Below the pieces are notes generated by a model. That model did no database searches. It had not been told where the DNA came from and was given only the letters and a program-made list of their open reading frames with translations. A program made the translations under genes and the position numbers. Below are positions 42,399 to 52,136 of a DNA stretch of 64,000 nt, piece by piece; within the stretch, counting starts at the first letter, position 1; each line of letters starts with the position of its first letter. Source of the stretch: Nitrospira sp. (GTDB taxonomy: Bacteria > Nitrospirota > Nitrospiria > Nitrospirales > Nitrospiraceae); assembly GCA_035968315.1 (NCBI GenBank), contig JAVYIN010000005.1, forward strand, positions 620,001-684,000, read 5' to 3'.

Positions 42399-42425
42399 CA
42401 GGCCCCGGTTCAACACCGGGGCCTG
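42399..42425. terminator. Hairpin terminator between convergent lon and FAD oxidoreductase
   Basis: CAGGCCCCGGT (42399-42409), loop TCAAC, ACCGGGGCCTG (42415-42425): an 11-bp perfect, GC-rich stem just 6 nt after the lon stop. There is no T-run, but the position between convergent genes suits a shared, bidirectional stem. Confidence 0.6.
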
Positions 42426-42447: not shown

Positions 42448-43797
42448 TCACTTTCTGAGGACGCACTTCTCATACAGATCCTTCAGCTTGGCCGCCGGAT
42501 CATACCGGACCTTGAGCGCGCGGTAGGCCGGTTCGTTGTACAACTGCCAGAAGTCGTCGCGCGAATAGTACGCATCTGAGTAGAGGGACTTTTTGCCGTG
42601 GAGGGCCCGCACGGTGGCTTCGACTTTCTTATTGAAATACCCCTCTTCATGGTCGGTCTTCACCGCGTCCCAGAATCCGAAATTGACGTACAACATGCCG
42701 GGAGTCATCGGGTACAACGGATAGGAGGCCGTTGGATCGTAGGCTGCGACCGGACAGATCCACACCGGGGTGATCCCAATCTCCCGATTGAAGAACGCGG
42801 CAAACGTCGGCGCCTGCTCCAGCGGAATTTCCACGTCCTGAATCACGAGCTCCTGCCGGCCGGTCAGCGCGCCGGCGATCCGCTGGGCGACGGGTGAGCG
42901 ATTGAACCGGTTGCGCACCTGCCAATAGACAGTGGAGCAGAGACGCTTCCGGCCCCACAGCCACCGGACGAGCGGATGCTGGACGAAGAAATGTTTCGAG
43001 CACCAGAACCAATCGGTGTCCCATCGCCACAGGTAATCGTGCGCCGTCAGGTAATCCACCGTCTTCTGCTGGATCGATCGATAGTAGATGTGCTGATAGG
43101 TGTAATCGCTCACCCATTCAGCCTGATCGACCCATTCCCCGGTCGTGATATAGAGCTCCCGCCCGCTGAACATCGTGCCATCCACGAAAGCCACCTGCCC
43201 GTCCCGGCAGATGCGCCCCAGGGCCTGGAAATAGGTCTCCGGATCGGAATACCGCTCGTGCCGGAGCCGGACAAATTTCTTGACGGGAATGAGCGCGAGG
43301 GTGACGGTGAGCGCATAGCCCAGCGTGCCGTAGGAATTCGCAAACCCGAAGAACAGATCTCGGTGCTCGTTCTCTTTGGTGGCCGACACGACCCTGCCGT
43401 CAGGCAGGAGAATATCCATGGCCAGGACCGTTTCGTGGACGAAGCCGTACTTGAATGAGGACGATTCAATGCCGATCCCCGCCAATGCTCCGCCGATAGT
43501 AATCGACTTCAGTTGGGGGACCACGCAGGGCATCAGTCCGAACGGCAGCGTTTCGCGGACCAGCTCCTCGTAGGTCGTCATCCCTTCGACTAAGGCAGTC
43601 CTGGCCTGCTCGTCCACGCGGATCACATGGTTGAAGTCGCGGACGTCCAGCTTCTGCCGCGGCTCCTGCACCCGCTGACGGAAGAGATTGGAGGTGGGTT
43701 TGTCGAGGGCCAGCGATCCGGTTTGGCTAGACGCGCGCAGGGACTCCGCCAAGGCCGCTCGCTTGCGGGCATGGTCTTCTAGCGAGATCATCGCCAT
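42448..43797 (-). CDS. FAD-binding oxidoreductase, DWARF1/TmsA-like
   Basis: 449 residues. N-terminal FAD_binding_4 domain (about 25-175): RDFNHVIRVDEQARTALVEG and IGGALAGIGIESSSFKYGFV, then a second half with FGFANSYGTLGYALTVTLAL. This is the DWARF1/DHCR24 type that reduces C=C bonds. Its start overlaps by one nucleotide the stop of a CFA-type methyltransferase. In actinobacteria such a pair (TmsA reductase with TmsB methyltransferase) builds 10-methyl fatty acids, so reduction of a 10- or 11-methylene fatty acyl chain is a strong hypothesis. Plain steroid-like activity is less likely. Confidence 0.8.
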   Translation of the reverse strand: MAMISLEDHARKRAALAESLRASSQTGSLALDKPTSNLFRQRVQEPRQKLDVRDFNHVIRVDEQARTALVEGMTTYEELVRETLPFGLMPCVVPQLKSITIGGALAGIGIESSSFKYGFVHETVLAMDILLPDGRVVSATKENEHRDLFFGFANSYGTLGYALTVTLALIPVKKFVRLRHERYSDPETYFQALGRICRDGQVAFVDGTMFSGRELYITTGEWVDQAEWVSDYTYQHIYYRSIQQKTVDYLTAHDYLWRWDTDWFWCSKHFFVQHPLVRWLWGRKRLCSTVYWQVRNRFNRSPVAQRIAGALTGRQELVIQDVEIPLEQAPTFAAFFNREIGITPVWICPVAAYDPTASYPLYPMTPGMLYVNFGFWDAVKTDHEEGYFNKKVEATVRALHGKKSLYSDAYYSRDDFWQLYNEPAYRALKVRYDPAAKLKDLYEKCVLRK

Positions 43798-44906
43798 CAG
43801 CGCACCGCCTCATAGCCGCCCAACAGGCCATGCTTCGACATCACGATCTGCCAGAGATGGATGGTTCTGGCGCGGAAGGCCCCCGCGAGAGACAGGAGAT
43901 AGTACCGCCACATGCGGAAGAACCGCTCATCGAAGGTCTGCTCCCATTGCGCCTGATGCCGGTCGACGTTCTCCTGCCACGCCAGAAGCGTCCGGTCATA
44001 GTCGGGCCCGAAATTATGCCAGTCCTCCAACACAAAGAGCCCGTCCATCGCCTCGCCCAGTTGCGCGGCCGACGGCAGCATACCGCCTGGGAAAATGTAG
44101 CGATCGAACCAGGGATCGCCGGTGGTCACCGAGGCATTGTTCCCGATGCTGTGGAGCAGAAACAGCCCATGCGGCTTGAGCCGCCGATGGGCCACCTCCA
44201 TCAGCGTGCGATAATTCTTGTACCCGACATGTTCGCAGATGCCGATGGCCGCCACCTTGTCGAACTCCCCGGTGGCCTCACGATAGTCCTCGAGTTTGAT
44301 GTCGACGGGCAGTCCCGCGCACCAGCGGCGCGCGTAGGCGACCTGCTGCTCGGAAATGTTGTGGGCCACCACCGAACAGCCATAGTTGGAGGCGGCGAAA
44401 TGGGCGAACCCGCCCCACCCACACCCCAGCTCCAGCACACGGTCGCCTTTTTGAAGTTGCAGCTTCCGGCAGATCACATCCAGCTTCTGTTCCTGCGCCT
44501 CCTCCAGGCTCTTCACGCCCTTCCAATAGGCACAGGTATATTGCATGCTCGGGCCGAGCATCTGTGCGTAAAACTCGTTGCTCAGATCGTAGTGCCGTTG
44601 CGCCACAAGTTTTGAGCGGCTCGGCGTCTGCATATTGAAGAGGCGGGCTTTGAACCCGTTCAGAATCAGCCGCGTATCGCGCACGGCTTTGTCGAGTTCG
44701 ACCGCATGAATCCGGAAAAAGAACTCGTCCAGCCGGTTGGCATCCCACCAGCCATCCATATAGGACTCGCCGAGCCCGAGCGAGCCCTCGGCCAGGATCC
44801 GATCGTAGAATTGATCGTGGTGGACTTGGATATCACCCGGTTGGGTCCCGTTGATGTGCACCTGAGCTCGCTCGAGCAATTCCTGAACGGTGTGCTGTGC
44901 GTGCAT
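43797..44906 (-). CDS. CFA-family fatty-acid methyltransferase (cyclopropane synthase or TmsB-like)
   Basis: 369 residues from ATG 44906 (SD GGAGG...AGGGGAG; a frame open to 44957 is rejected). SAM motif I LELGCGWGGFAHFAA, the active-site loop GICEHVGYKNYRTLMEVAHR and the FIFPGG-like YIFPGGMLPS motif identify the cyclopropane-fatty-acyl-phospholipid synthase family. Acts on unsaturated acyl chains of membrane phospholipids. The overlapping FAD oxidoreductase suggests a methylene-to-methyl pathway rather than a cyclopropane end product; sequence alone cannot separate these. Confidence 0.9.
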   Translation of the reverse strand: MHAQHTVQELLERAQVHINGTQPGDIQVHHDQFYDRILAEGSLGLGESYMDGWWDANRLDEFFFRIHAVELDKAVRDTRLILNGFKARLFNMQTPSRSKLVAQRHYDLSNEFYAQMLGPSMQYTCAYWKGVKSLEEAQEQKLDVICRKLQLQKGDRVLELGCGWGGFAHFAASNYGCSVVAHNISEQQVAYARRWCAGLPVDIKLEDYREATGEFDKVAAIGICEHVGYKNYRTLMEVAHRRLKPHGLFLLHSIGNNASVTTGDPWFDRYIFPGGMLPSAAQLGEAMDGLFVLEDWHNFGPDYDRTLLAWQENVDRHQAQWEQTFDERFFRMWRYYLLSLAGAFRARTIHLWQIVMSKHGLLGGYEAVR

Positions 44907-45137
44907 CTCGACGCTCCCCTTTCCTCCACCGGGCGGCAGAGTCTTTGCGCAGGCCAAAACGGAGTGACGTACTTCAACGCGGGGCTATTCTACGGTATCC
45001 GCAGGGTCCCTGAGAAGGAGAAAACAGAGGGGACAGTACCGGGAAAAGGGGCAGAATGAGCCGAACGGGACGAACCGTGAGCCACCGCGCCGCAGCCTCA
45101 CAGCTCCAGATCCAACACCGAAACCTCGAGCCCTGCG

Positions 45138-45674
45138 CTATAGATCGGCGAGGCCAAGCGTCCGTTTCCAATGCTCCACATACGCCCAGTCGATATGCAG
45201 CTCAGACTGGCGCACGTGGATTTTCTCCAGATCGGCGAGATCCTGCAGCCGCCCCGCCAGCGTCTTTAAGATGATCAGATCTTCCACCGTGAGAATGGGA
45301 ACCGACAGCGAGGCAAACGAAACCCGGCGGGCGCGACCCAATGCCGTTTGAAGATAGGTGGAATCCGCCAGGAGCAGATCGACGAGGATTTCCTGATCGC
45401 GGCGAATTCCCACGATTCGCCAAATCGACAGTCCATGAAACACCATCGGTGCAGGATGTATCACCGTGGCATCGAACAATGGCGACACCAGCGCATGGAG
45501 CGTATCCCGGGACGGCCGATCGAGAAGAATGAGAAGATCAATATCGGTTGTGGCCCGTGGCTCGACCAAGGCACTGTACGCCCAGCCTCCTGCAAGCGCA
45601 TAGGCCACACCACGACGATTGAACTCGGTAATGAGGTCGGAAAGGGCGTGAATTAGGATCGGCTCTGCCGCCAT
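45138..45674 (-). CDS. Nucleotidyltransferase-fold protein
   Basis: 178 residues. Pol-beta nucleotidyltransferase motifs: ALAGGWAYSALVEPRATTDIDLLI (G-G and D-x-D), with a third acid candidate in QEILVDLLLADSTY. C-terminal half is helical (ILTVEDLIILKTLAGRLQDL). The family includes AbiEii/MenT-type toxins and simple nucleotidyltransferases. It overlaps the preceding 65-residue gene by 22 nt, so the two form a pair of possible toxin-antitoxin or accessory nature; target unknown. Confidence 0.75.
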   Translation of the reverse strand: MAAEPILIHALSDLITEFNRRGVAYALAGGWAYSALVEPRATTDIDLLILLDRPSRDTLHALVSPLFDATVIHPAPMVFHGLSIWRIVGIRRDQEILVDLLLADSTYLQTALGRARRVSFASLSVPILTVEDLIILKTLAGRLQDLADLEKIHVRQSELHIDWAYVEHWKRTLGLADL

Positions 45675-45850
45675 GCCTGCTCTTTGGCCAGTCGAATCTC
45701 GTGCATCACCTGGACGAGTCCATCGCCCTGCGGATGGTCCTGTCGCAGCACGGCCTGACGCAAGGCCAACCCCAATTCCGTCAATTCGATCGTCCGGCGC
45801 AAATTGTCAGCAATCCGCGCAGCATCATGGTGTGGACTTACTTGTGGCAT
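45653..45850 (-). CDS. Small partner of the nucleotidyltransferase
   Basis: 65 residues from ATG 45850; the frame is open to 46042 but the earlier part lacks a start with an SD. MPQVSPHHDAARIADNLRRT is followed by a helical, charged region (LGLALRQAVLRQDHPQGDGLVQVM). Its 3' end overlaps the nucleotidyltransferase start by 22 nt. Size, position and overlap suit an antitoxin or an AbiE-like partner, but no domain is recognised. Confidence 0.55.
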   Translation of the reverse strand: MPQVSPHHDAARIADNLRRTIELTELGLALRQAVLRQDHPQGDGLVQVMHEIRLAKEQAWRQSRS

Positions 45851-45998
45851 CGTCAGCCGCCTTAGATAACAAGGGGATCTGTGCCAGAGTCTACTAGACA
45901 CCTTCCTTGGGCGCAAGCAGGAAGACCGGACTAACCGAATCGAAGCCGTCCAGCCGGAAGAAGAGAATACCCGCTCGCCAGGAGAAGCTCCGCGTCGA

Positions 45999-46217
45999 TC
46001 AGTCCGGCTGAGGCCGTTGATACCGGATCGAGTAGTGCCCACATTTCATGCAGGCGACGGAGTACGACGGGAGAGAGAGATGGTAGAGCTTGTGGATATA
46101 ACTGGGCGGCACCGTCGAGTCAGGGTGCCCTTGATTGCGCTGGGTGTCGAGCGCCCGCCCACACTGGCCATTCGCACAATTCACAGTTTCCGGAACGATG
46201 GGAGCATTTATAGTCAT
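45999..46217 (-). CDS. Small zinc-ribbon protein
   Basis: 72 residues. Two cysteine knuckles, NCANGQCG (C-x4-C) near the N-terminus and ACMKCGHYSIRY (C-x2-C) near the C-terminus, make a likely four-Cys zinc site. Pro/Tyr-rich middle. No family recognised. It lies opposite the start of the HigB remnant region. Confidence 0.55.
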   Translation of the reverse strand: MTINAPIVPETVNCANGQCGRALDTQRNQGHPDSTVPPSYIHKLYHLSLPSYSVACMKCGHYSIRYQRPQPD

Positions 46218-46378
46218 GCGAGCACCATAGCAGGGTCATCGCGCGAAGTCCAAGGGGTGTAAGAATCGGAAGAAACACGTTTCGGCTGATCGCAGCCATT
46301 CATTATAATCGGAAGAAGCTGTACATCCGGCACATCCTGACGCACGCAGAATACGACCGGAACACGTGGAGGACTTGA
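46214..46378 (+). pseudogene. HigB-type toxin, N-terminally truncated remnant
   Basis: The frame is open from 46214 and lacks a start codon, but from about 46264 it reads IGRNTFRLIAAIHYNRKK, LYIRHILTHAEYDRNTWRT and stops at 46378, the C-terminal half of HigB toxins (the FRLIAxIxY and RxxxTHAEYD blocks). The first 45 or so residues are missing and no start fits. The intact higA gene begins 4 nt later. The toxin is therefore probably dead. Confidence 0.7.
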
Positions 46379-46381
46379 TCC

Positions 46382-46852
46382 ATGCTTGCCAAATACATTC
46401 AGGACGCCCATACCGACTACCGCCGCATCCGGCAGCGGATTCCACTCGGTCCGCTACGGACTGAAGCCGATTATAACCGCGCCGTGGCCGTCCTCGATGA
46501 AATCCTGGATAAAATCGGTCAGCAAGAAACCCACCCCCTGGCCGACCTGGCGGAGATGCTTGGCCTCTTTATCGAAGCATATGAGGACGCCCATGTCCCC
46601 TTCTCCGACTCATCCGCCTCCGAAATCCTCCGCACCTTGATGGAAGAGCATGCGCTCAAGCAATCGGACTTGTCAGAGATCGGCAGCCAGGGCGTCGTCT
46701 CAGAAATCCTCTCCGGCAAGCGAGACCTGAACGTCCGCCAAATCACCCAATTGGCCGCCCGCTTCGGTGTCTCACCCGCGCTCTTCATGCCTGTTCCGAA
46801 GAAACCCACCAAACGCCCTTCGTCCCGAACACGCGTAGCAAGCCGGCGGTAA
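46382..46852 (+). CDS. higA: HigA-type antitoxin, XRE family
   Basis: 156 residues. N-terminal helical part (YNRAVAVLDEILDKIGQQET, PLADLAEMLGLFIEAYED) and C-terminal HTH (about 90-140: LRTLMEEHALKQSDLSEIGS, VVSEILSGKRDLNVRQITQL) in the manner of HigA. SD GGAGGAC lies 9 nt before ATG. Its toxin gene upstream is a remnant, so this antitoxin appears to be orphaned or acts as a regulator. It marks the left edge of the AT-rich defence-like segment. Confidence 0.85.
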   Translation: MLAKYIQDAHTDYRRIRQRIPLGPLRTEADYNRAVAVLDEILDKIGQQETHPLADLAEMLGLFIEAYEDAHVPFSDSSASEILRTLMEEHALKQSDLSEIGSQGVVSEILSGKRDLNVRQITQLAARFGVSPALFMPVPKKPTKRPSSRTRVASRR

Positions 46853-47218
46853 CTCAGTCTGCTGATCCGAGTCCTCGCCACGATCGGCCATCGGGCAGAA
46901 GCCCGGGTGAAAAATGCAGCAGCCTAATCTGCACCACCCCCCATATTCTTGAGCGAAAAGCGGTCCTCAGGTGCCAAGTCAAGCAACGACCCTGATTCCC
47001 GGTTCTCTCCACCTATCTCACTTGATCAAAAAATACGCTAAAAATCAGAATACCCCATCTGTGTCATTGCTTTCTTATCCATACATGGGTAGGTGTTGAG
47101 CGAACATTCGGATAGGCGAAATGACTCCTATATCCATTTTCCTCTTCTGACGAACTTCCTTTCTTGACTTGAAGGAGGCGGGAAATGATAGGTTGCAAGG
47201 CGGTTGAGGAATATTCCT
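46853..47218. other. AT-rich intergenic region before the methylase operon
   Basis: No ORF or RNA gene is seen in this 366-nt gap. Base composition falls from GC-rich to AT-rich between about 46980 and 47200. A weak promoter candidate (TTGACT at 47164-47169) precedes the methylase start, which is overlapped by a 12-bp palindrome. Confidence 0.5.
47207..47218. promoter_or_regulatory. Palindrome over the methylase ribosome-binding site
   Basis: AGGAATATTCCT at 47207-47218 is a perfect 12-bp palindrome ending one base before ATG 47219 and containing the SD (GAGGA, 47206-47210). It could be an operator for autoregulation, or could pair in RNA to hide the SD. Role inferred. Confidence 0.35.
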
Positions 47219-48304
47219 ATGGTTGGAATCGATTTATTCTCAGGTGCCGGAGGTATGTCTATCGGTGCTACAATGGCAGGGGTCAGAATTTCCCTTGCCA
47301 TTGAGGCAGATCGATCTGCAGCGGCAACTTATGCTCAAAATCATCCAAACACCCCAGTCCTCCAAAAAGACATTCGGCTAGTTGACCCACTGAGCATTCC
47401 CCAGATTTCCAAACTTAAAAGAACAAAAGAACCAACTGTCATATTTGGCGGCCCACCATGCAGAGGATTTTCAACCTCAAATCAGCGAACCCGCTCAGCT
47501 TCAAACCCCTCAAATTGGTTATTTCGAGAATACACACGTTTCGTCAAAACTATCCATCCTGACTGGATTGTCTTCGAGAACGTACGAGGCATTATTGAAA
47601 CAGAAAGAGGTGCCTTTCTTGAGCATATAATGCGTGAGCTCAAAAAGATTGGCTATACCCTCTCTTTCGGAGTTCTCAACGCTAAGGACTTTGGTATTCC
47701 CCAAGACCGATCACGGCTTTTCATCATTGGGTCTCTCCATGGCGTTTCGTTACCACTACCCAAAGGAAAATCCCACCGCCAAATTACGGTACAAGAGGCT
47801 TTGAGTGATTTGCCTGAATTGGAAAATGGCGCAAGTTCCGATATGCTTCGGTATCCGGTCAAGGCTAGTACTTCGTATGCAAAAATGTTGCGTGGCACAT
47901 TGACCCACTGCAGTGGTCATCTTGTAACCCGCAACGCATCCTATGTACTGAGTCGTTACCGCCATATTCCGCAAGGAGGAAACTGGGAACAGATTCCTAG
48001 CCGTCTGATGAAAAATTATGCTGATCCTTCCCGATGTCATACTGGGATCTACTACAGACTAAAAGAGAATGAGCCTTCTATCGTAATTGGGAACTTCAGA
48101 AAGAATATGCTCATTCACCCAAGGCAAGACCGAGGGCTGTCTGTCCGCGAAGCGGCCAGGCTTCAGTCTTTCCCTGATTGGTTCCGGTTCACCGGATCAA
48201 TAGGCTTTCAACAACAGCAAGTGGGGAATGCCGTCCCTCCGTTTTTAGCTAAAGCAATTTTCCAAGAACTACTTTCTATTAATCAATCCGGTGATTGCAC
48301 ATGA
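47219..48304 (+). CDS. DNA (cytosine-5) methyltransferase
   Basis: 361 residues from ATG 47219 (a TTG 15 nt upstream is the alternative). Motif I DLFSGAGGMSIGAT, motif IV GGPPCRGFSTSNQ (catalytic Cys; PCR replaces the usual PCQ), motif VI FENVRGIIET, motif VIII QDRSRLFIIG, motif IX-like REAARLQSFPDWFRF and motif X QQVGNAVPP are all present. Target specificity cannot be read off. Codon use and GC are lower than the flanks. First gene of a four-gene operon; the next gene overlaps by 4 nt. Confidence 0.92.
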   Translation: MVGIDLFSGAGGMSIGATMAGVRISLAIEADRSAAATYAQNHPNTPVLQKDIRLVDPLSIPQISKLKRTKEPTVIFGGPPCRGFSTSNQRTRSASNPSNWLFREYTRFVKTIHPDWIVFENVRGIIETERGAFLEHIMRELKKIGYTLSFGVLNAKDFGIPQDRSRLFIIGSLHGVSLPLPKGKSHRQITVQEALSDLPELENGASSDMLRYPVKASTSYAKMLRGTLTHCSGHLVTRNASYVLSRYRHIPQGGNWEQIPSRLMKNYADPSRCHTGIYYRLKENEPSIVIGNFRKNMLIHPRQDRGLSVREAARLQSFPDWFRFTGSIGFQQQQVGNAVPPFLAKAIFQELLSINQSGDCT

Positions 48305-49329
48305 CCCTGGCTCACCTATTACCGTTGGAAGCATGCCTAAAGGAAGTATCGGCCTCATCGAGGAATGAATTTCCAACCCCACAAATTGACTATTTCCAAC
48401 GATATCGCTCCGTTAAGGAGTGGTTAATTAACAATGTGTACAAGCATATTGGGGCTACTCTTGCAACCGATGGAGGAATCTATACGGATCATGGCCCCGA
48501 TCACTTCGACCAGGTTATTGTTTACGCTGGGCTAATGATTGGTGCCGAAGAGCCCAAATGCGTTCCGGATCGATTGAAGCCCTACGAGGTATACGTCCTT
48601 CTCATGGCTATCCTGTTACATGATGCGGGCAACGTCTATGGACGTATCGGTCATGAAAAGAAAGCCTTCAAACTCCTCAGTGAAATGGGAGCGTTGGCTG
48701 GGGATGATAACGTCCAGAAGAAAGACATTGCCGATGTGGCACAGGCGCATGGCGGGGAAACACCAACAGGAGATAAAGATACAATTGGAATCCTCAAAGA
48801 ACATAGTCGGCATGCGACGGCCAGCTTCAGAGCACAGGTCTTAGCGGCTCTCCTTAGATTTGCCGATGAGGTCTGTGAAAACCGTGGTCGTGGGGCACGA
48901 GTACTTCTTGATGGAGGAGCCATTAGCAAGAAGAGTGAAGTCTATCATGCGTATGCTGAGTCAGTAACAACTGCGTGGCCTGATAGAGGCGCCAAAACTA
49001 TTGATATTAAATATGACATCCCGATCAACCGAGCAACACGTTTATGGGGAAAAGGTGACGGTGAAACATATCTGATCGATGAGATCCTGCTCCGGTTAGA
49101 AAAAATGGACCTCGAGCGAAAATATTGCACTCGTTTCATGTTCCCGGTATTTAGAGTGGATCGAATTGATGTGACGATCAATATTAACGGAGAAGACATG
49201 ACTCCAATCCAAACACATCCCATTCGACTTGAGGAGTCTGGGTACCCATCCTCTCCTGAAAACCTAGCCAAGAGATACCCCCATCTGCTTGGGCAAACAC
49301 TTCACAAATGTCTCCAAACTAAGATTTAA
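48301..49329 (+). CDS. HD-domain phosphohydrolase of the methylase operon
   Basis: 342 residues from ATG 48301, overlapping the methylase stop (ATGA). Metal site of the HD family: TDHGPDHFDQV (about 62), LLMAILLHDAGNVYGRIGHE (the HD pair, about 107) and further D residues in LLRFADEVCENRG. C-terminal part is mixed alpha/beta. HD proteins in conflict systems cleave nucleotides, ssDNA or cyclic messengers; here it is the candidate effector or second-messenger hydrolase. Similarity to Cas3/HD-CE-type domains is a pattern-level impression. Confidence 0.75.
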   Translation: MTLAHLLPLEACLKEVSASSRNEFPTPQIDYFQRYRSVKEWLINNVYKHIGATLATDGGIYTDHGPDHFDQVIVYAGLMIGAEEPKCVPDRLKPYEVYVLLMAILLHDAGNVYGRIGHEKKAFKLLSEMGALAGDDNVQKKDIADVAQAHGGETPTGDKDTIGILKEHSRHATASFRAQVLAALLRFADEVCENRGRGARVLLDGGAISKKSEVYHAYAESVTTAWPDRGAKTIDIKYDIPINRATRLWGKGDGETYLIDEILLRLEKMDLERKYCTRFMFPVFRVDRIDVTININGEDMTPIQTHPIRLEESGYPSSPENLAKRYPHLLGQTLHKCLQTKI

Positions 49330-49335
49330 GCATCT

Positions 49336-51126
49336 ATGGATGTCATTGGCCAAAATCCTTTTTCCGTTCAAACTCCAGAAGGCATGTCAGCCCAAGAGAT
49401 AGTAGATTTGTTCGTTGACATCTTCTCAGATTACTTCAACGTCCAAAAGACTGGACATGCATTTCTTCACGGGCCTCGCGGGTCAGGCAAGAGCATGATG
49501 CTGCGCTTTATGGCACCTGATTGCCAAATGATAAGTCGAAACGTGTCCCTTAAACAGCTCCCTTACTTCGGTGTATATGCCTCAATTAAAGCTACAGATC
49601 TAAGACTTAGTGAATTTGCTCGTCTCAAAGATAAATTCGCTGAGGTTATCCTTGCAGAACATGCAATGGCTCTTTTTTTCGCCACAAAAACAATTTTCGC
49701 AATTGATTCTGCAGTTAGTATTAGCAATCTGTCCGAAGCAGAATCCAAAGAAGTTTTCCAGACTTGCTCGCGAATCCTTGAGCGTTTGCAACAAGCAGGT
49801 TGGACTCCGAAATCAGAGGCTGAGAAACCAACAACTCTTGCGGATCTCGTAAAGCTCTTTGACAGCCTCTACTTAAGGACCATCGCATACCTCCGAACAG
49901 TTTCATTCACAGGGAAGGATATGCCGTACTCCGACGCATTGTTGGGATTTCATGATTTCCTACTTCCACTTTTCAAAGATCTCTCTAGCCTAAGCTTCAT
50001 GCCCAGCGGCCCTATATTTCTGATGATCGATGACGCAGACAATCTCAGCGAAAAACAAACCCAAATACTTAACACCTGGGTATCTTCCCGAAGCACAGAC
50101 TTCGTTTGCCTTAAAATCGCCACCCAATTGAACTACAAGACCTATCGCACAATCAACGAAGGCAAGATAGCCTCACCACATGATTTCTCAGAAAGTAATA
50201 TTACCAGCATCTATACCTCTCCCAAAGAGCGGTATCCAAACTGGGTTAAAGAGATTGTAAGAAAACGGCTGCAAAGAGCAGCCATCACCGCATCTCCCGA
50301 AGAATTCTTCCCAGAGGACAAGGCGCAAGAGGCTAAAATTGAAGAAATAGCCAAAGAGCTTAAAGCCAACTGGCCAAAGTTTGGTCGTGGGTATCGTCCA
50401 GAAGACGACGCTTATCGCTATGCCAGACCAGAGTATATTAAGCGGTTAAGGGGAAGCAGCAAGCAAGGATCCACCTATCGTTACGCAGGGTTCAAACAGA
50501 TCGTTCATATTTCTTCTGGTGTTATTCGTCACTTCCTTGAGTCCGCGTCTCTTATGTACGGTGAGCAAAGAAAACATTCCAAACATGGCACGGTACAATT
50601 TATTGACCCCAGAATTCAGCACGACATTCTCAAGGGACAGTCAGACAATTTCATGATGGCCGAGTTCGACAGATTAGCGATAGACGAGCAACAAAATCCC
50701 GACAATGTTACGAAAACTCAACGCCTCAAAAATCTCGTGACAGTTTTGGGTGGCTTATTCCAAATGATCCTTGTCTCCAACGCAGCCGAACGTCGGATAT
50801 TTTCATTTGCTCTTTCTGACGAACTAGATCCCGAAGTTAAGGAAGTCCTGAAACTTGGGATTGAGAATGGATACCTCTATGAAGCTGCAATCGGCACAAA
50901 GGAAGGAACAGGGCGAACTAGACTCTACGTTCTAAGCCGTATGATGGCACCCCATTTCCTACTCGACCCAACCGGCTTCTCCGCATATAAGTTCGTCACC
51001 AACGAATTTTTGCGAAGTGCTATCCTACATCCCACCACAACCCTGCGCAGCATTAAGAACCGAATAGATGATGAAGTAATTGGCAGTTCTCAACGAGATC
51101 TCTTTTCGGAGGAAACTTCTTCGTGA
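49336..51126 (+). CDS. Large P-loop ATPase (ORC/STAND-like) of the methylase operon
   Basis: 596 residues. Walker A GPRGSGKSMMLRF (about 45), Walker B IFLMIDDADNLS (about 237), then a helical C-terminal half containing a probable winged helix (GYLYEAAIGTKEGTGRTRLY). The plan of Walker A close to the N-terminus, DD box and long helical tail is that of ORC/STAND ATPases used as sensors in defence systems. Codons are AT-rich. It begins 6 nt after the HD gene and overlaps the next gene by 4 nt. Confidence 0.75.
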   Translation: MDVIGQNPFSVQTPEGMSAQEIVDLFVDIFSDYFNVQKTGHAFLHGPRGSGKSMMLRFMAPDCQMISRNVSLKQLPYFGVYASIKATDLRLSEFARLKDKFAEVILAEHAMALFFATKTIFAIDSAVSISNLSEAESKEVFQTCSRILERLQQAGWTPKSEAEKPTTLADLVKLFDSLYLRTIAYLRTVSFTGKDMPYSDALLGFHDFLLPLFKDLSSLSFMPSGPIFLMIDDADNLSEKQTQILNTWVSSRSTDFVCLKIATQLNYKTYRTINEGKIASPHDFSESNITSIYTSPKERYPNWVKEIVRKRLQRAAITASPEEFFPEDKAQEAKIEEIAKELKANWPKFGRGYRPEDDAYRYARPEYIKRLRGSSKQGSTYRYAGFKQIVHISSGVIRHFLESASLMYGEQRKHSKHGTVQFIDPRIQHDILKGQSDNFMMAEFDRLAIDEQQNPDNVTKTQRLKNLVTVLGGLFQMILVSNAAERRIFSFALSDELDPEVKEVLKLGIENGYLYEAAIGTKEGTGRTRLYVLSRMMAPHFLLDPTGFSAYKFVTNEFLRSAILHPTTTLRSIKNRIDDEVIGSSQRDLFSEETSS

Positions 51127-52136
51127 AGCTTTCAACTAAAATCTCTCTTGCCGAACTGCATAATTATGCTCCGGATAAGATTGATCTCTTCATTGGGTGT
51201 GCAAGCTTCGAGAAGCGATCCCAGTCTCTCGCAAGAGCGATCACGCCAAATCGGGTCGGTCATGCCGTGTTTTGTGTAAACGAAGATTATGCCGAATCTG
51301 CCAGCAAGAATATCGAGGCCTTGAAGAATCTCTATCCGTCAAAGCACGAGATACTGAATATTCGAACTGACGCCCCCCTATTGGCAGCAGATCATTTTTC
51401 TGAAACTCTGGCTGCTGCCCCCATAATATCTGGGGGAACCATATTTGTTGATATTACAACATTTACTCACGAGCAATTGCTTATACTCATTCGGATACTC
51501 CGCAACTCAGTGCATAGATTTAAGATCATTGCTGGCTATACTGGCGCCAGCCAATACGCAACAGATCTACCTGACGAACAAAAATGGCTCAGCAAAGGTG
51601 TAGATGATATCCGCTCAGTCCTTGGGTATCCAGGCAATCTACTACCATCGAGAAAACTGCATCTAGTTGTATTGGCAGGTTTTGAGAGCGAGCGAGCCGA
51701 GAAGGTCATTGAGGCCTACGATCCAGCAATTATCTCACTAGGCATAGGAGAGCAATCAGCCTCCATAAGCAAAGAACACCATGCTACCAACGCAGTGTTT
51801 CACAGAAAACTCCTGGAGCTCGTCGAAAAAAAGGCCACCGTAATTGCAAAGGTTGAACAATTCCAATTCTCATGCATCGACCCTCTTGATACTAGACGCA
51901 CAATTCTAGAACAGGCAAAGAAATTCCCAGGTCACAACACCGTAATCGCCCCCATGAACACAAAGATATCAACTCTCGGCACTGCCTTAGCTGCATTTGA
52001 AGAAGAATCGCTGCAAGTCTGCTACGCTCACCCTAAGGCTTATAATACTCATACATATTCCCTACCGGGATCAGATTGTCGCTTATTTGATCTAACGGAT
52101 GAACTTGACGCAATGACATCCCCTGCTGAATTATAG
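51123..52136 (+). CDS. Unknown alpha/beta protein ending the methylase operon
   Basis: 337 residues, starting at GTG 51123 that overlaps the ATPase TGA. Not recognised. Two Rossmann-like halves can be seen: KIDLFIGCASFEKRSQSLAR, HAVFCVNEDYAESASKNIEA and GGTIFVDITTFTHEQLLILI in the first; KLHLVVLAGFESERAEKVIE, HNTVIAPMNTKISTLGTALA and ESLQVCYAHPKAYNTHTYSL in the second. Such repeats resemble nucleotide- or second-messenger-binding folds (for example CARF-like), but no diagnostic motif is present. Probably soluble: no membrane segment. Confidence 0.7.
   Translation: MKLSTKISLAELHNYAPDKIDLFIGCASFEKRSQSLARAITPNRVGHAVFCVNEDYAESASKNIEALKNLYPSKHEILNIRTDAPLLAADHFSETLAAAPIISGGTIFVDITTFTHEQLLILIRILRNSVHRFKIIAGYTGASQYATDLPDEQKWLSKGVDDIRSVLGYPGNLLPSRKLHLVVLAGFESERAEKVIEAYDPAIISLGIGEQSASISKEHHATNAVFHRKLLELVEKKATVIAKVEQFQFSCIDPLDTRRTILEQAKKFPGHNTVIAPMNTKISTLGTALAAFEEESLQVCYAHPKAYNTHTYSLPGSDCRLFDLTDELDAMTSPAEL

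Follow-up and report, generated by a model that had tools for sequence, protein, structure and literature searches.

In actinobacteria, the BfaA and BfaB proteins are both needed for the formation of 10-methylstearate (PMC5660069, Machida et al.), and together they yield this fatty acid in E. coli and in yeast (PMC5660069, PMC7791843). BfaB forms a methylene group that is subsequently reduced by BfaA, and the earlier name of the system was tms (PMC7791843, Blitzblau et al.). Another operon, tmpBA, is known from Desulfobacter, Marinobacter, and Thiohalospira (PMC7791843), and the TmpB proteins from Desulfobacter and Thiohalospira are proven methylene makers. In the E. coli Cfa enzyme, bicarbonate is bound by Glu239, His266, and Tyr317 (PMC11387697).

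We analyzed a 64,000-nucleotide stretch of a Nitrospira sp. contig (the window), where a TmsA/TmsB-like gene pair had been proposed from the letters of the sequence. Both open reading frames, their families, and their adjacency were as this sequence-only reading had described them: the coordinates matched, and the products belonged to the Pfam families CMAS (257 bits) and FAD_binding_4 (54 bits). Namely, a methyltransferase gene of the E. coli Cfa subfamily (P0001, 369 aa; 43797..44906, minus strand; ATG start; assigned from the ORF and NCBIfam PRK11705) came first, and a FAD oxidoreductase gene (P0002, 449 aa; 42448..43797, minus strand), assigned as a BfaA/TmsA ortholog from the ORF and homology, was located directly downstream. 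The same order and adjacency recurred in other Nitrospira, for example in the congener Nitrospira sp. WB-IL-20 (G026). The reported one-base overlap was present for the ORF starts in the window, where a TGATG at the junction contained the methyltransferase stop and the reductase start with one base in common. However, the overlap depended on the start codon, since the Met-Ile start (ATG-ATT/ATC) conserved in most reductase relatives corresponded to M3 of the window ORF at 43791. Judging from these relatives, the reductase probably starts there, a few bases past the methyltransferase stop, and with this start the genes do not overlap. Upstream of the methyltransferase ATG, we read a GGAGG ribosome-binding region from the sequence (44907..44930, minus strand), and a TTG at 44957 was an alternative start of this gene.

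On one flank of the pair, an RlmL-like gene and the Lon gene were located on the plus strand and were unrelated to it. The reductase and Lon genes converge, and between them we read a perfect 9-bp inverted repeat with a loop of 7 from the sequence (42400..42424); this repeat is a possible shared terminator of both, without a T run. Promoter and terminator scans at the locus gave signals at the chance level only. As a separate observation, the region 45138-52136 of the window was a possible defence island with genes for an AbiEii/DUF2204-like nucleotidyltransferase, an HTH protein, a cytosine DNA methylase, an HD-CE protein, an ORC-CDC6-like ATPase, and an unknown 337-aa protein.

P0002 was 45-50% identical over nearly the full length to proteins from Nonomuraea, Nocardia, Tsukamurella, and Variovorax. 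The Tsukamurella gene (45% identity to P0002, which had 46-50% to other relatives) was located at a locus with the order recR, YbaB, amidase, pseudouridine synthase, SRPBCC protein, FAD, methyltransferase, dnaX. This was essentially equal to the bfaAB layout drawn by Machida et al. (PMC5660069). By comparison with this gene, as the representative of a bfaAB-like locus, P0002 is, as judged by sequence, an ortholog of the actinobacterial BfaA (TmsA). The family signature DYLWRWDTDWFWCS (residues 254-267 of P0002; 42997..43038, minus strand), invariant in the first 10 sequences, was common to P0002 and the actinobacterial BfaA relatives, and RWDTDWFWCS was invariant in 48 of 48 sequences. The AlphaFold model of P0002 (mean pLDDT 91) had a VAO/PCMH flavoprotein fold. 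The earlier label of a DWARF1-type FAD oxidoreductase was thus right as to the FAD_binding_4 domain (PF01565, 54 bits, the only Pfam match) and too specific as to DWARF1, since the nearest solved folds found by Foldseek were cytokinin oxidase and DprE1 from the wider VAO/PCMH group. A TmpA-type (geranylgeranyl-reductase-like) identity was ruled out by the match to FAD_binding_4 only and by the orthology to BfaA. We accepted P0002 as a BfaA-family member, with a presumed reductase activity, because of the orthology, the locus layout, and the fold. The TmsA/BfaA-type half of the proposed pair was therefore upheld by the 45-50% identity, the bfaAB locus synteny, and the shared signature.

Since the reductase appeared to be orthologous to BfaA/TmsA, methylene formation followed by reduction, as previously suggested for this pair, was the best reading of its function. 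We consider it likely that the pair is an operon whose products modify membrane acyl chains in two steps, with a methylene intermediate on the way to a mid-chain methyl branch. At the first step, the E. coli-type Cfa would transfer a methyl group from SAM to a monounsaturated acyl chain bound in a phospholipid. The pocket beside the bicarbonate-binding Glu appears to be altered (Met-Phe to Ile/Leu-Cys) and, because of this, the carbocation-like intermediate could lose its proton elsewhere, giving a methylene branch and no ring. At the second step, the FAD protein would convert the methylene by reduction into a saturated methyl branch, as expected from the published activity of BfaA, and the reductant would probably be NADPH. 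If the BfaB rule applies, with the methyl going to the distal of the two double-bonded carbons, one would expect 8-methyl- and 12-methyl-16:0, or a 10-methyl acid from a delta-9 chain. An 11-methyl product would need a delta-10 chain or an attack on the proximal carbon of a delta-11 chain. Our literature search yielded no relevant publication on bfaA in Nitrospira.

The TmsB-like half of the proposal had to be replaced. P0001 scored 545.5 bits against NCBIfam PRK11705 (cut-off 400) and 257 bits against Pfam CMAS, and matched the E. coli Cfa structure (PDB 6bqc) with E=4.7e-121. Membership in the TmsB/BfaB group was ruled out by the PRK11705 score above the cut-off and by the identity of ~35% to BfaB versus ~51% to E. 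coli Cfa. The locus also did not have the bfaA-then-bfaB order, with the methyltransferase gene being upstream in the window. The bicarbonate-site residues of P0001 were intact (Cys125, Glu225, His252, Ile254, and Tyr303), and the counterparts of E. coli Cys139 and Ile268 were kept among them. On the other hand, the alignment placed Ile223-Cys224-Glu225 (44232..44240, minus strand), where the Glu is the bicarbonate ligand, at the position of Met237-Phe238-Glu239 of E. coli Cfa. P0001 thus exceeded the PRK11705 cut-off and had the bicarbonate ligands of an E. coli-type Cfa but lacked the Met-Phe-Glu motif. P0001 and the BfaB type both deviate from Met-Phe ahead of the catalytic Glu, which is a correlate from our analysis rather than a published definition. 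In place of a TmsB-like protein, the window encoded a Cfa of the E. coli subfamily whose active-site motif was altered, and the two genes were in the reverse of the bfaAB order.

The PRK11705 score of 545 bits, the ~51% identity to E. coli Cfa, and the complete set of bicarbonate-site residues were also what one would expect if P0001 were a typical cyclopropane synthase, merely co-transcribed with a FAD protein that acts on another lipid. We regard this as unlikely, and the active site provided one of the reasons. Our comparison covered 65 columns in which solitary E. coli-type Cfas (n=36, originating from E. coli K-12, plasmids, and other Nitrospirota) were conserved and in which the solved enzymes of Aquifex (7qos) and Lactobacillus (5z9o) had the same residue. 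Only Met237 and Phe238 (2/65 columns) were lost in all three FAD-paired methyltransferase lineages. These positions were occupied by Ile/Leu-Cys in the window's group, by Leu-Thr in the BfaB type (29/29 sequences), and by Thr/Val-Leu in the beta/gamma type. Among the solitary E. coli-type Cfas, Met was present in 36/36 and Phe in 33/36, the latter being absent from three. The two solved cyclopropane synthases (7qos and 5z9o) retained Met-Phe, and the mycobacterial CmaA1 and UmaA retained the Phe. The naive chance of at least two columns being lost in common across the lineages was 0.014. P0001 has thus lost a motif that nearly every solitary E. coli-type Cfa and both solved synthases retain, which speaks against an ordinary cyclopropane synthase. 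The loss of Met-Phe was our main new sequence evidence suggesting that P0001 has stopped closing the cyclopropane ring, as a correlation that came from scanning the three FAD-paired lineages against the solitary Cfas.

The distribution of the genes provided further reasons. Among 175 Nitrospiraceae genomes, where absences were based on whole-genome searches, the reductase was found in 27, a high-scoring E. coli-type Cfa in 26, and both in 25 (Fisher p ~7e-27, a statistic that ignores relatedness). The three exceptions (G156, G165, and G147) had a partial match to one gene only. Wherever both genes were whole in this family, the Cfa adjoined the BfaA-type reductase, and the co-inheritance (25 shared of 27 and 26) ruled out a chance adjacency. 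In other Nitrospirota families, we examined 26 loci with an E. coli-type Cfa, and none of them had a BfaA-type neighbor within 1.5 kb. In one congener (G025, maybe N. lenta), a scar of the pair was present (L226:5768-5978), which retained the start of the methyltransferase, a small inverted piece, and the end of the reductase interrupted by a stop codon. The fragments of both ends and the stop codon indicated that the pair was lost there.

Among the matches listed, the reductase relatives had an adjacent methyltransferase of three kinds: the BfaB type in actinobacteria, with the reductase gene first; a separate type in beta- and gamma-proteobacteria, with the methyltransferase gene first; and the E. 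coli-type Cfa in Nitrospiraceae, as well as in MAGs assigned to Deltaproteobacteria (Myxococcota), Acidobacteriota, Verrucomicrobiota, Patescibacteria, and Woesearchaeota, although the taxon labels of MAGs may be wrong for single contigs. The paired E. coli-type Cfas formed one clade of 26 rows (support 100/98) that included MAGs of Myxococcota, Acidobacteriota, and Verrucomicrobiota. A second branch of paired Cfas consisted of three Patescibacteria-labelled rows with a reversed gene order. As reconstructed, the Cfa tree needs two changes of the pairing label, although the pairing of E. coli-type Cfas could still have had a single origin. The near-perfect co-inheritance, the separate clade of the paired Cfas, and the presence of the same reductase family next to three different CFA lineages among the matches listed all counted against a cyclopropane synthase that is merely co-transcribed with an unrelated gene, and they fit a methylene-then-methyl operon better. 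We give about an even chance to a broader proposal, in which an E. coli-subfamily Cfa turned methylene-forming after pairing with a BfaA-type reductase. This would be a third type of mid-chain methyl-branching operon, present in several phyla, and the same two residues (Met237-Phe238), altered independently in the FAD-paired CFA lineages, would act as a switch that decides whether the ring closes or a methyl branch forms.

Several other genotypes were observed during the comparison. In L100, L116, and L143 (Patescibacteria-labelled or unlabelled MAGs), the reductase was followed by an E. coli-type Cfa, that is, in the reversed order and on a separate branch; this was perhaps a second pairing event, and an odd one for small-genome bacteria. 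Some gamma-proteobacterial MAGs, including L103 and L125, had, among the matches listed, BfaA homologs without a CFA gene within 8 kb. Since such homologs occur, the BfaA-type reductase may have other partners or substrates. In L103 and L125, the reductase was located after an ammonium transporter and an NADPH-dependent FMN reductase, which was assigned by Pfam in L103 and was represented by an ORF of similar size in L125. A 38-kb plasmid of Prescottella sp. R16 (L027) carried two facing bfa-like pairs with identical TetR and Rieske neighbors and broken reading frames, which is an inverted duplication. On a Streptomyces virginiae plasmid (L293), genes for a fatty acid desaturase, a nitroreductase/quinone-reductase family protein, and an E. 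coli-type Cfa were located in a row; this Cfa was on a very long branch, and the three genes were possibly a further desaturase-reductase-Cfa set.

The sequence-only reading had called the pair the obvious candidate for the synthesis of 11-methylhexadecanoic acid, the marker lipid of Nitrospira. Both the enzyme classes and the genus were right for this, and 11-methyl-16:0 was reported at >20% in N. moscoviensis, N. bockiana, and N. calida, whereas it is not a marker in N. defluvii or N. marina (PMC3660363 Table 3; see also PMC5516240). However, the assignment now seems rather improbable. We found a genome (G112) where the 16S region was an exact match to the probe Ntspa1026, with 2-3 mismatches in two congeners. 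This probe is presumably aimed at N. moscoviensis. In PMC6981482, it was listed for sublineages 1 and 2. G112 also had a full NiFe hydrogenase gene, as did one other congener tested. The identification of G112 as N. moscoviensis was strong but not proven. With a 10-sequence profile, no reductase homolog was found in this genome, and a whole-genome search found no E. coli-type Cfa. As far as the identification holds, the pair was thus absent from a species that makes the methyl-branched lipid, and it is very likely that the 11-methyl-16:0 of N. moscoviensis has another origin. Moreover, the reductase was present in only 27 of the 175 Nitrospiraceae, and the pair is unlikely to be a general source of the branched marker lipid in Nitrospira. 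The marker monoenes of the genus are cis7 and cis11 (PMC3660363 Table 3), and by the regiochemistry of BfaB these would give 8- and 12-methyl acids, in agreement with another origin of the 11-methyl acid. G112 possessed three other full CFA-family genes, two of them beside a fatty acid desaturase. This desaturase-CMAS-CFA cluster (L223; 11674-12972, 13081-13986, and 13965-15029) was a better candidate than the pair for the source of the N. moscoviensis 11-methyl-16:0. Its CMAS-like member was found in 1 of the 175 Nitrospiraceae, and the relatives of its CFA-like member were more widely spread. The pair may make 11-methyl-16:0 in some other species; for N. japonica, N. lenta, and KM1, no fatty acid reports were found in the open-access literature. 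A tempting assignment was thereby corrected, and N. moscoviensis appears to rely on a different gene set for this marker.

In Rhodobacter, CFA-family enzymes initiate the synthesis of furan fatty acids, and the fold of P0002 was common to the oxidases cytokinin oxidase and DprE1. Both points would suit a FAD protein that is not a reductase but an oxidase or desaturase of the methylated chain, on the way to conjugated or furan fatty acids. Such a role is very improbable, since the closest characterized family was BfaA, a methylene reductase (PMC7791843, PMC5660069), and no further furan-pathway gene was recognized beside the pair.

If the methylene-then-methyl reading is true, automatic labels of cyclopropane synthase may hide makers of methyl-branched lipids next to BfaA-type genes in Nitrospira and several other phyla, and the reading of membrane lipid biomarkers of nitrifiers would change. 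The two-residue change would be a direct mutagenesis target for the choice between cyclopropane and methyl branch, useful for branched oils.

In comparison to the known systems, the pair resembled the actinobacterial bfaAB (tmsAB) in being a two-gene operon with a CFA-family methyltransferase, a conserved bicarbonate site, and an orthologous reductase; it differed in that BfaB was ~35% identical to P0001 and the reductase gene came first in bfaAB. The tmpBA operon shared with the pair the order of methyltransferase first and reductase second, whereas TmpA was geranylgeranyl-reductase-like and not homologous to BfaA. The beta- and gamma-proteobacterial pairs of CFA-like and BfaA-type genes (e.g., on Variovorax plasmids) had the gene order and the reductase family of the pair in the window, but their methyltransferases belonged to a third lineage that was ~33-41% identical to P0001. 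E. coli Cfa was from the same subfamily as P0001 (51% identity), had a similar length, and contained all the bicarbonate-site residues. However, it had Met237-Phe238 where P0001 had Ile223-Cys224, and its GVT motif (195-197) was AHN in P0001 and Ala-Tyr-Asn in most relatives. Thus, the pair was most likely a hybrid that joins the reductase of the bfa operon to the gene order of tmp. Its combination of a BfaA-type reductase with a re-tooled E. coli-type Cfa, unlike the known bfa and tmp combinations, would most likely produce mid-chain methyl-branched acyl chains.
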